Shown: piece by piece, positions 20,129 through 22,828 of the stretch
How positions within the stretch are numbered: the stretch's first letter is position 1
Layout of the letters: each line of letters opens with the position of its first letter
NCBI GenBank assembly: GCA_031286285.1
Contig: JAITUN010000224.1
Coordinates: 1 to 36,027 of the forward strand
Source of the DNA: Bacteroidales bacterium
GTDB lineage: Bacteria; Bacteroidota; Bacteroidia; Bacteroidales; WCHB1-69
Length of the DNA stretch: 36,027 nucleotides
Reading direction: 5' to 3'
Made by a program: the position numbers and the translations under genes
The notes under the pieces: generated by a model
Database searches by the model: none
What the model saw: the letters and a program-made list of their open reading frames with translations, nothing else
What the model was told of the DNA's origin: nothing

Positions 20129-20803
20129 TTAAAAAATCATAAGAAAATTAGAGAAAAGATGATAAAAAACAAACCCGGCAAAGCCTGCAAAAATTAACCC
20201 CCAAATAAATGCCGGCACTCCGGTTGTTTTCTTTAACAAGGTGGTATCGCCTGCTTTATCTTTTTGTTTTATAGAAAAGAACAAGACTATTAATGCTGAT
20301 ATTAGTGCATCAACAGCAATGAATACCGCATACAATAATGCAGCAATATGAATATAATCAACATTGTTAATATAGACTAAATATCCGTTAATAGAGCAAA
20401 AAGCGAGTATCCAAACAAAGCCGTAAATGTTTCTTATCCACAACAACAGCATGAATAGAAAGAGAATAGAGATTCCGAGCAGAAATCCTTTTTCATATCC
20501 GGCATTCAACAAAAAGAAAATGAAATAGGAAACTGCTGAGGCAAAGGGGTATCCAATAAAAGCTACTAAAAAGCTGCCGAATTTTGTTTTGGTAGAGGTG
20601 GTTGTCGTGCCGGAAGCATCATTAAAAAGTTCTATTTTTTTCACATTGCCTTCTAAACAGAGCGTCATCAGTGCATGTCCCAATTCATGAATAGCAGTAT
20701 TTATGATGTTGAACCACTTGCCAATAACAGGAATGCGGGGTAATAGCAGCGCTAACCCCGCAAACCAGTAGATATAAGGAATTTCTAAAAAACTTGATTT
20801 CAA
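20129..20803 (-). CDS. M50-type integral membrane zinc metallopeptidase-like protein
   Basis: This 224-residue membrane protein has the zinc-binding HELGH motif (His39, Glu40, His43) in the second hydrophobic region, as in M50 site-2-protease relatives of the PF13398 type. Five or more further hydrophobic helices follow, at about residues 70-95, 98-118, 120-140, 145-175 and 195-222. The third zinc ligand expected near an N/D-P-G or similar motif is not obvious, so activity is not assured. The only reasonable start is TTG at 20803, 4 bases after the stop of the upstream GTPase-like gene, which makes an operon. Its stop is 3 bases from that of the convergent giant gene. A role in intramembrane proteolysis is the family expectation; the substrate is unknown. 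Confidence 0.78.
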   Translation of the reverse strand: MKSSFLEIPYIYWFAGLALLLPRIPVIGKWFNIINTAIHELGHALMTLCLEGNVKKIELFNDASGTTTTSTKTKFGSFLVAFIGYPFASAVSYFIFFLLNAGYEKGFLLGISILFLFMLLLWIRNIYGFVWILAFCSINGYLVYINNVDYIHIAALLYAVFIAVDALISALIVLFFSIKQKDKAGDTTLLKKTTGVPAFIWGLIFAGFAGFVFYHLFSNFLMIF

Positions 20804-20807
20804 GTTT

Positions 20808-22157
20808 TTATTTTTTAAGATTGTGTTTTTTTACAAATTCATCAAGAACCTCTTCTAAGGTCGGTTTTCCAATCTCTTGCAATTCATAACCCACTTTTAC
20901 CACAGGTTGTTTGATTTTGCAGAAGCGCGGAAGATCAATCGGAGTTCCAATCACAACAGCATCGCAAGGGGTATTGGCGATAGATTTTTCCAAGTCGTTC
21001 ATTTGAGCTTCGCCGTATCCCATAGCAGGCAGTAACGCGCCGATTCCGGGGTAAGTAGCGAAAGTTTCTTTTAATGAACCCACGATGTAAGGTCTTGGGT
21101 CAATCATTTCGGCGGCTCCGTATTTCATGGCAGCTACCGTACCGGCGCCAATCTTCATTTCACCATGCGTTAAAGTAGGCCCATCTTCCACCACCAATAC
21201 TTTCTTTCCTTTTATTAGCTCAGGTTTATCCACCGTTAAAATAGAAGCGGCATCAATAATTGTAGCTTTTGGGTTGATTCTTGCTAAGTTAACTCTAACT
21301 TGGTTGATATTTTCTAAAGAAGCGGAGTCAATTTTATTGATTACGATAACGTCAGCCATACGGGCAACTACTTCACCCGGGTAGTAGCTAACTTCTGCGC
21401 CCGGGCGTAACGGGTCGGCAACTCCAATAAAGAGATCGGGAACATAGAAAGAGAAGTCGTTGTTTCCGCCATCCCAAAGAACGATGTCACAGCCATCGGG
21501 ATCTTTTTCAGCTTCACGAAGAATCGCTTCGTAATCCACACCGGCATAAATCACATTTCTTTTTGTAACCACGTGGGGTTCATATTCTTCCATTTCTTCA
21601 ATAGTACAGTTGTGTTTTTTCAAATCTTCCACACAAGCAAAGCGTTGTACTTTTTGTTTATTCAAGTCAGGGTCGTAAGGCATGGGGTGTCGAACAGCTA
21701 CTACTTTTAAGCCCATAGCTACCAAATACTCAATGATTTTGCGTGAGGTCTGCGATTTTCCGCAACCGGTACGAGTAGCGCCTACAGCAATAACCGGTTT
21801 TGTTGACTTAATCATGGTTTCTTTGGGTCCCATTAAAACGAAATTAGCGCCTGCAGCATTCACAATAGCGCTGATGCTCATTACATAGTTGTAGGGTTTG
21901 TCGCTGTATGCAAAAACGCATTCATCTACATTAAATTTTTTGATTAATTGAGGAAGCTCAGATTCCTTATAGATTGGAATCCCGTTTGGGTATAGATCTG
22001 TCCCCGCTAATTCTTTAGGGTAAGGTCTTCCGTCAATTCCGGGGATCTGTTCTGCGGTAAATGCTACCACATTGTAATTTGGGTTGTGGCGAAAATAGGT
22101 GTTGAAGTTGTGAAAGTCTCGCCCTGCCGCGCCAATGATAATGACATTTTTTTTCAT
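20808..22157 (-). CDS. Cyclic 2,3-diphosphoglycerate synthetase-like P-loop protein
   Basis: From ATG 22157 the protein has 449 residues; the longer frame to 22205 only adds AT-rich leader. The N-terminal part is Rossmann-like (NVIIIGAAGRDFHNF), followed by a P-loop VGATRTGCGKSQTSRK at about residues 125-140, then VRHPMPYDPDL, LWDGGNNDFSFYVPDLFIGV, an NKID motif and EDGPTLTHGEM. This set matches the family of Methanothermus cyclic 2,3-diphosphoglycerate synthetase, which makes an intracellular stabilising solute. Bacterial members have no settled role and may do different chemistry. It is co-transcribed with an M50-type protease. Its promoter faces that of an LptC-like gene across an 18-base inverted repeat. 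Confidence 0.85.
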   Translation of the reverse strand: MKKNVIIIGAAGRDFHNFNTYFRHNPNYNVVAFTAEQIPGIDGRPYPKELAGTDLYPNGIPIYKESELPQLIKKFNVDECVFAYSDKPYNYVMSISAIVNAAGANFVLMGPKETMIKSTKPVIAVGATRTGCGKSQTSRKIIEYLVAMGLKVVAVRHPMPYDPDLNKQKVQRFACVEDLKKHNCTIEEMEEYEPHVVTKRNVIYAGVDYEAILREAEKDPDGCDIVLWDGGNNDFSFYVPDLFIGVADPLRPGAEVSYYPGEVVARMADVIVINKIDSASLENINQVRVNLARINPKATIIDAASILTVDKPELIKGKKVLVVEDGPTLTHGEMKIGAGTVAAMKYGAAEMIDPRPYIVGSLKETFATYPGIGALLPAMGYGEAQMNDLEKSIANTPCDAVVIGTPIDLPRFCKIKQPVVKVGYELQEIGKPTLEEVLDEFVKKHNLKK

Positions 22158-22213
22158 AATGTTTTGATTTTTAAGTTTATATAAAAAAATTGAATAAATT
22201 TTCAATAGGTTTG

Positions 22214-22221
22214 CAAATATA
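22214..22221 (-). promoter_or_regulatory. -7 promoter element of the GTPase/M50 operon
   Basis: The minus strand reads TATATTTG, matching TAnnTTTG, 57 bases before the ATG at 22157. It is the left end of the inverted repeat 22214-22255. Confidence 0.55.
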
Positions 22222-22247
22222 GAGTTTTTATGGTAGGATAAAAACTC

Positions 22248-22255
22248 TATTTTTG
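22248..22255 (+). promoter_or_regulatory. -7 promoter element of the LptC-like gene
   Basis: TATTTTTG matches TAnnTTTG and is the right end of the inverted repeat. Transcription would begin near 22262, so the TTG at 22253 cannot be the start codon of the following gene. Confidence 0.55.
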
Positions 22256-22270
22256 CCGAAAATTTTTCAC

Positions 22271-22828
22271 TTGAACATAAATAAGCATCTTTTTTTTCTT
22301 TTTTTCTACCTCACATTTTTTTTGTGTATCTATTCATGCAGTTCATATTCAGAAAAGGCAGAGATGATGGAATATAATGGTAAGTTTCCCGATGAATCAG
22401 GGATAAATATTGAATATTTTATGAGTGAAGACGGTGAAATTACATTTTCCTTATATGCCCCTGTGATGAATACCTATTATAGTGATAATCCTTTTACCGA
22501 TTTTCCGGAAGGCATAGTAGTTTCATCTTATACTAATGGAGAAAAACATTCCACTCTTACTGCTAATTATGCAATTAAAGAAGATTATACAGAACGTATG
22601 GAAGCTCACGGAAATGTTGTAATTGTAGATTTAGTGAAACAAGAATCTATTCTTACTGAAAAAATTATTTGGGATAAAAAAAACAAGCGTATCCATTCTG
22701 ATGTAGAAGTAACTCAAATAAAATCAGATGGAACAAGAAATATTGGCGACGGTTTTGAAGCTGATGAAAAATTTACTAAATATACTATCAAGAATCCTCG
22801 TGGTGAAATCTTAGCAGAGGAATTGTAA
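22271..22828 (+). CDS. lptC: LptC-like LPS-transport lipoprotein
   Basis: LptC passes lipopolysaccharide from the LptBFG transporter to the periplasmic bridge. From TTG 22271 the protein has 185 residues. It starts with a basic-hydrophobic signal ending in the lipobox-like LCIYSC, so it may be lipidated as in many Bacteroidota LptC proteins. The LptC fold follows: GINIEYFMSEDGEITFSLYA, FTDFPEGIVVSSY, HSTLTANYAIKED, EAHGNVVIVD, SILTEKIIWDKKNKRIHSD and a terminal KYTIKNPRGEI. No ATG is available. The frame extends to TTG 22253, but that codon is inside the promoter, so TTG 22271 or a nearby ATA is the best start. It stands alone, divergent from the GTPase/M50 operon and convergent with the AI-2E-type gene. 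Confidence 0.85.
   Translation: MNINKHLFFLFFYLTFFLCIYSCSSYSEKAEMMEYNGKFPDESGINIEYFMSEDGEITFSLYAPVMNTYYSDNPFTDFPEGIVVSSYTNGEKHSTLTANYAIKEDYTERMEAHGNVVIVDLVKQESILTEKIIWDKKNKRIHSDVEVTQIKSDGTRNIGDGFEADEKFTKYTIKNPRGEILAEEL

Follow-up and report, generated by a model that had tools for sequence, protein, structure and literature searches.

A near-perfect inverted repeat between lptC and a GTPase/M50 operon of a Bacteroidales bacterium is probably a pair of back-to-back housekeeping promoters

Housekeeping promoters of Bacteroidota are characterized by a -7 box with the consensus TAnnTTTG (PMC7366714, PMC9723704). A -33 element is seen in B. thetaiotaomicron promoters; in the available text of the same report, this element is not identified in F. 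johnsoniae (PMC7366714). For E. coli, bidirectional promoters have been described in which the two transcription starts flank or lie within a shared -10 element (Warman, Forrest, Stringer, Wade, and Grainger; PMC12825309). The accessible part of that report places the two starts most often 18 bp apart, with distances of 10 and 23 bp also common, and states that competition at the bidirectional promoters tested had an effect only under strong activation of one direction. A limited literature search found no account of bidirectional promoters in Bacteroides or Bacteroidetes.

Here, we analyzed a palindromic sequence between two divergent transcription units, lptC and a GTPase/M50 operon, in a Bacteroidales bacterium. 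The window is the whole stretch of DNA that was analyzed (36,027 nucleotides). The genus sample consisted of six genomes, i.e. that of the window (G000; 3,156,700 bases) and five congeners (G001-G005), and the family sample consisted of 104 genomes. The G000 assembly (3.16 Mb) is larger than those of the congeners (1.1-2.4 Mb), has a contamination estimate of 6%, and contains two contigs, C63 and C322, with an identical back-to-back promoter site; part of the bin may therefore be redundant or foreign.

The sequence at 22213-22256 reads GCAAATATAGAGTTTTTAT GGTAGG ATAAAAACTCTATTTTTGC, with two 19-nt arms paired at 18 of 19 positions around a 6-nt spacer (Table 1; arm limits from the inverted-repeat scan). 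The scan thus confirmed the near-perfect inverted repeat described in an earlier note on this DNA, including its single mismatch and 6-base spacer; the extent given there, 22214-22255 with 18-base arms, falls one base short at each end. The outward-pointing TAnnTTTG box that the note saw in each arm is also present. No other repeat with at least 18/19 pairs and a spacer of 3-20 nt was found in 232,169 scanned bases of G000 (the window and 20 further stretches). Under the same criteria, simulated first-order Markov sequences yielded 0 repeats per 1 Mb when genome-like and 2 per 1 Mb when intergenic-like, and the chance expectation from simulation is about 0.0002 per region of the size in which the palindrome lies.

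Table 1. Features around the inverted repeat; promoter elements and transcription starts are predictions
Feature	Position	Strand	Remarks
M50B-like peptidase gene	20129..20803	-	Pfam PF13398, E 2.5e-34; presumed second operon gene, 4 nt after the GTPase gene
P-loop GTPase gene	20808..22157	-	Remote relative of cyclic 2,3-diphosphoglycerate synthetase (9sxb_A, E 9.5e-5)
Left arm	22213..22231	-	Predicted extended -7 region of the GTPase/M50 operon promoter; minus-strand reading ATAAAAACTCTATATTTGC
-7 box TATATTTG	22214..22221	-	GTPase/M50 operon; predicted start about 22209 (minus)
Spacer GGTAGG, 6 nt	22232..22237	.	Part of the 11-mer ATGGTAGGATA
Right arm	22238..22256	+	Predicted extended -7 region of the lptC promoter, ATAAAAACTCTATTTTTGC
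-7 box TATTTTTG	22248..22255	+	lptC; predicted start about 22260
lptC	22273..22828	+	Pfam PF06835, TIGR04409; lipoprotein-like leader

The palindrome would represent two housekeeping-sigma promoters placed back to back, that of lptC on the plus strand and that of the GTPase/M50 operon on the minus strand. With the Bacteroidota sigma-ABfr promoter (-7 TAnnTTTG, -33 TTTG) the locus shares both -7 boxes, an AT-rich spacer, and a short distance to the gene, but it carries no -33 TTTG and has two outward copies 26 nt apart. Predicted divergent transcription from one pseudo-symmetric stretch, possibly with exclusive polymerase binding, recalls the E. coli bidirectional promoters. Unlike those, however, the palindrome has no shared -10/-7 element with starts typically 10-23 bp apart; its -7 boxes are distinct and non-palindromic, and the predicted starts are separated by about 51 bp. 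The resemblance to ordinary divergent overlapping promoters lies in polymerase footprints that would overlap and -7 boxes that do not; the arm identity of 18/19 is unusually high for such a pair. The palindrome is predicted to work like a divergent overlapping promoter pair.

The local -7 profile was derived from 48 TAnnTTTG sites located at most 250 nt before ORFs of at least 100 codons in the same 232 kb of G000. A was the commonest base throughout positions -11 to -4 and T at -2, with the core TATTTTTGC. Both palindrome arms match this profile, each with an A-tract followed by TAnnTTTGC. The bare TAnnTTTG was barely enriched between ORFs (88 sites, 1.06/kb) relative to the inside of ORFs (269 sites, 0.70/kb), a ratio of only 1.5; the box alone is thus weak evidence, and it is the extended form that matters. 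Allowing at most 2 mismatches, the extended pattern TAAAAAYTCTATNTTTGC was found 64 times in G000 versus 8 times for the reversed control, and the corresponding counts in the five congeners were 17 versus 3, 46 versus 3, 53 versus 10, 48 versus 5, and 43 versus 11. This excess and the fit to the profile indicate that each arm is a predicted promoter element typical of the genus, comprising the Bacteroidota housekeeping -7 box and an upstream A-tract. The half site TAGAGTTTTTAT has five matches in G000 (two for the reversed control), two of which are the palindrome arms; the remaining three comprise one that leads into the -7 element variant TATTTTCGCC and two without such a continuation. The transcription starts were predicted from the box placement of F. 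psychrophilum, which the available text of its report gives as -12 to -5 (PMC9723704). By eye, neither promoter has a -33 TTTG or TTG at the expected distance of about 17-23 nt before its -7 box; a T5 tract lies there in both. The 48-site profile of G000 likewise had no clear -33 consensus, and a sigma-70 promoter scan of 22100-22400 gave no match.

The conservation of the two arms was assessed separately. The GTPase gene was found in five of the six genus genomes, in one of them as a contig-end fragment, and its upstream sequence in G001-G004 is ATAAAAATnCTATATTTGC, at the same place as the left arm of the window. Of the 104 family genomes, 69 had a GTPase match, and 31 loci were taken, including that of the window. 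All 31 have a CAAAnnTA box at a distance of 54-78 nt before the first GTPase codon, as placed by alignment to that of the window; within the same 200 nt, the reversed motif occurred in 4/31 loci and an opposite-facing TAnnTTTG in 12/31. By eye, the genes beyond the GTPase promoter differ among genomes. At the other gene, an A-tract followed by TATTTTTGCC lies upstream of lptC in G000, G001, G002, and G004, so that the box is conserved in four of the five genus genomes with an orthologue, G000 included; no clear -7 box was seen upstream of lptC in G005. G001 retains the lptC box even though GTPase is not its neighbour. The divergent promoters proposed in the earlier note for lptC and the GTPase/M50 operon are therefore upheld by boxes conserved at orthologous genes as well as by the local profile.

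The palindrome itself is absent from all four congeners with the GTPase locus, including G002 and G004, where lptC is divergent from GTPase as in G000. The TA-to-TA gaps in G000, G002, and G004 are 26, 293, and 121 nt, respectively. Inverted-repeat scores before GTPase were 16 in the window, 11 in G001, 7 in G002, 6 in G003, and 5 in G004, and the next-best score among all loci scored was 13 (L040), in unrelated sequence. The nearest dyad in the genus, that of G001, covers the same GTPase box and is a different one, with 11-nt arms and a 9-nt spacer. An opposite-facing TAnnTTTG within 60 nt was present in 5/31 family loci, that of the window included, and the others had no comparable palindrome. 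Lack of arm conservation, which the earlier note had named as refuting its reading, thus applies to the palindrome and not to each -7 box taken separately. Each predicted promoter is conserved at its own gene, whereas the close juxtaposition is not.

An origin of the compact arrangement is suggested by the 11-mer ATGGTAGGATA, which spans the palindrome spacer. It begins 18 nt (window) or 52 nt (G002) before the lptC -7 box. Of 3,000 Markov sequences modelled on the G002 intergenic region, 14 had a shared word of at least 11 nt, and the 11-mer is missing from G004. This one word in one congener suggests a wide ancestral arrangement followed by deletions that fused the promoters. Deletions in the window lineage would have eliminated the intervening 100-300 nt seen between the promoters of the two congeners, and the final step to 18/19 symmetry could have been chance or homogenization of the arms by template switching. 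Taken as a whole, the palindrome is very probably two back-to-back housekeeping promoters, which recent deletions in this lineage have probably compacted.

How much symmetry such a pair would show by itself was estimated from other promoter arms. Two good outward promoters, each consisting of TAnnTTTGC and an A-tract, would take on the look of an inverted repeat. Identity of at least 18/19 between unrelated promoter arms was rare: among 34 distinct G000 arms it was reached by 4 of 561 pairs, one of them being the palindrome itself, and it was found in 0 of 1,012 between-pair comparisons of G000 back-to-back arms, and in 25 of 5,356 arm pairs from other family members. G000 contains 33 back-to-back pairs with gaps of 10-40 nt versus 1 for the reversed control. 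With the 23 pairs that have separate arms, the expected number of palindromes of this quality in G000 is at most about 0.2, which makes the palindrome uncommon, not astonishing; from ordinary promoter pairs, the genome would reach an arm identity of 18/19 with a chance of about one in five at most. The symmetry largely follows from both promoters being near consensus, and with both arms recognized as promoter elements only a modest excess remains. The symmetry test used the 23 of 33 G000 pairs with separate 19-nt arms (the remaining 10 were too short and were dropped) and revealed no clear general symmetry, with means of 12.35 within pairs and 12.00 between pairs. At gaps of 25-29 nt in the other family genomes, the mean symmetry was 13.08 versus 12.30 for re-paired arms, a value reached in 2 of 2,000 re-pairings; this small excess leans towards a symmetry-seeking process.

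In another reading, template switching (quasi-palindrome correction) acting on two similar pre-existing promoters would have made the symmetry, which would have no function itself. Homogenization of arms by template switching is already known, according to the available parts of two reports (PMC7202029, PMC8604942). At one position, both window arms carry the C of AAAAAC. The four congeners that have the GTPase locus show T there in the GTPase arm (AAAAAT), and the lptC arm has T in G002 but A in both G001 and G004. However, this is one base, for which a convergent or chance change suffices, and the process accounts at most for the last steps of arm similarity. We consider it a possible contribution without expecting it to be the explanation. 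The earlier note had proposed a dimeric regulator at this site, with joint control of lptC and the GTPase/M50 operon. Such an operator could well take the form seen here, a long and almost perfect AT-rich dyad flanked by divergent genes, and the slightly raised symmetry at gaps of 25-29 nt and the different short dyad over the GTPase box of G001 point the same way. Against this, the dyad is missing in G002 and G004 despite the same divergent gene pair, and the GTPase arm is conserved even without any second arm. A search of G000 for the whole palindrome at up to 3 mismatches returned only the palindrome itself. The five neighbouring genes scanned against Pfam and NCBIfam encode an M50B peptidase, the GTPase without a family, LptC, an AI-2E-type transporter, and a 1,206-aa protein without a family, and none is a regulator. 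The unconserved dyad, its single copy, and the lack of a regulator among the five neighbours scanned make a dedicated operator at the palindrome unlikely, and joint control by a dimeric regulator is, in our estimate, very improbable.

Two further readings concern the repeat as a structure. As single-stranded DNA the palindrome folds into a strong hairpin (-12.8 kcal/mol, z -9.2), as expected for an intrinsic terminator, a structured RNA, or a cruciform element. It lies, however, upstream of both predicted starts, so it would not be transcribed from them, and it is not conserved; no intrinsic-terminator site was found in 22100-22400, and the search for Rfam families gave one miRNA match (E 0.34, 17 bits versus a gathering score of 117) that was taken as chance. 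A structural element of this kind is extremely unlikely. Invertible promoters flanked by inverted repeats are known in Bacteroides, and the repeat could by analogy be an invertible promoter, as in Bacteroidales phase variation, or the end repeat of a mobile element. With just 6 nt between the arms, inversion would flip nothing useful, and no further copy of the repeat was found in G000; this reading can be given almost no probability.

If the two arms are promoters, their proximity bears on how lptC and the GTPase/M50 operon would be transcribed. The statement in the earlier note that the two promoters occupy almost the same DNA is correct for the spacer/-33 region, which is shared, and not for the -7 boxes, which are 26 nt apart from TA to TA and do not overlap. 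Because the spacer/-33 regions overlap, polymerase competition between the lptC and GTPase/M50 promoters, the alternative offered in the earlier note, is sterically plausible. A polymerase on one promoter would cover the spacer/-33 region of the other, and only one could be bound at a time. With two strong promoters the consequence would be mutual exclusion, with two weak ones hardly any effect. The suggestion that LPS transport and the GTPase operon respond together is not borne out, since binding that excludes the other polymerase would leave the two units independent or antagonistic, as is reported for bidirectional promoters of E. coli (PMC12825309).

Back-to-back pairs were then considered across the family with the pattern GCAAAnnTA-N(10-40)-TAnnTTTGC and its reversed version as control. 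All 104 family genomes contained such pairs, 2,972 in total versus 84 for the control, i.e. about 35 times commoner, where 40 of the 104 genomes come from one genus and orthologous sites are counted repeatedly. By gap, there were 954 pairs at 10-14 nt (control 15), 70 at 15-19 nt (18), 537 at 20-24 nt (11), and 327 at 25-29 nt (12), and a further 1,084 at 30-40 nt, or about 493 per 5 nt. The 15-19 class was below both neighbouring classes in 15 of 17 genera, several of them with small counts; the genera without the deficit were g8 (14, 1, 1) and g10 (1, 1, 4). In the genus of the window the four classes from 10-14 to 25-29 held 19, 11, 16, and 14 pairs, so the deficit is weak there and comes mostly from other genera. 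Among 75 listed of the 327 pairs in the 25-29 class, which was chosen because the window belongs to it, 74 sites were broken down further. After likely orthologues were collapsed to 52 sites, gaps of 25 to 29 nt accounted for 10, 20, 11, 5, and 6 of them, so that the 26-nt gap of the window represents 20 of 52. The flanks of the 15 of 33 G000 pairs with assigned loci comprised 8 divergent gene pairs, 1 case with both neighbours in the same direction, and 6 cases left undecided by contig ends or an over-long ORF call.

A gap of 15-19 nt puts the opposite -7 box on the -33 position, and a clash of the -33 region with that box may explain the deficit. This is preferred over helical phasing, which was set aside as the cause of the spacing; the second deficit it calls for, at 25-29 nt, is mild (327 versus 537 and about 493). 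The pattern also admits a stronger reading, in which back-to-back promoters are a regular, selected architecture of this Bacteroidales family with preferred gaps, and the window repeat is its extreme case. Many pairs at 10-14 nt, very few at 15-19 nt, many from 20 nt on, and the over-represented 26-nt gap in the sample would be the preferred gaps. At 26 nt, the A-tract that precedes one -7 box would fall on the opposite -33 position and one tract could serve both promoters; the palindrome would then be a natural outcome. We consider such a selected architecture doubtful.

The genes on both sides of the palindrome were also inspected. For lptC, TTG 22273 is a likelier start than the TTG at 22253 chosen by the ORF caller, which overlaps the lptC -7 box; by eye, the aligned start is TTG in G001, G002, and G004 and ATG in G005. 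With 22273 as the start, the leader would be about 13 nt long and LptC would begin with a lipoprotein-like signal peptide. A second, distant LptC-like gene with 32% identity is present in the same assembly (G000:C320:2620-3132). The product of the gene upstream of the M50B-like peptidase gene is one that we take to be a GTPase, the name used in the earlier note. It is highly conserved, with 81-94% identity in the family loci taken (the fragment left out) and 66-86% in the best 80 wider contig loci. It had no family match at 0.001 in Pfam and NCBIfam, and 9sxb is its one significant PDB relative by sequence.

The window repeat itself would be an ordinary promoter pair in an unusually symmetric form. 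It carries a caution for this phylum, as an AT-rich palindrome that separates divergent genes in Bacteroidota can be an echo of promoters, not an operator. The spacing pattern in the family is more interesting than the palindrome and points to a possible packing rule for divergent promoters of Bacteroidales. If confirmed by mapped starts, this would be a packing rule for non-palindromic -7 boxes in a phylum with a sigma-factor consensus other than that of E. coli.
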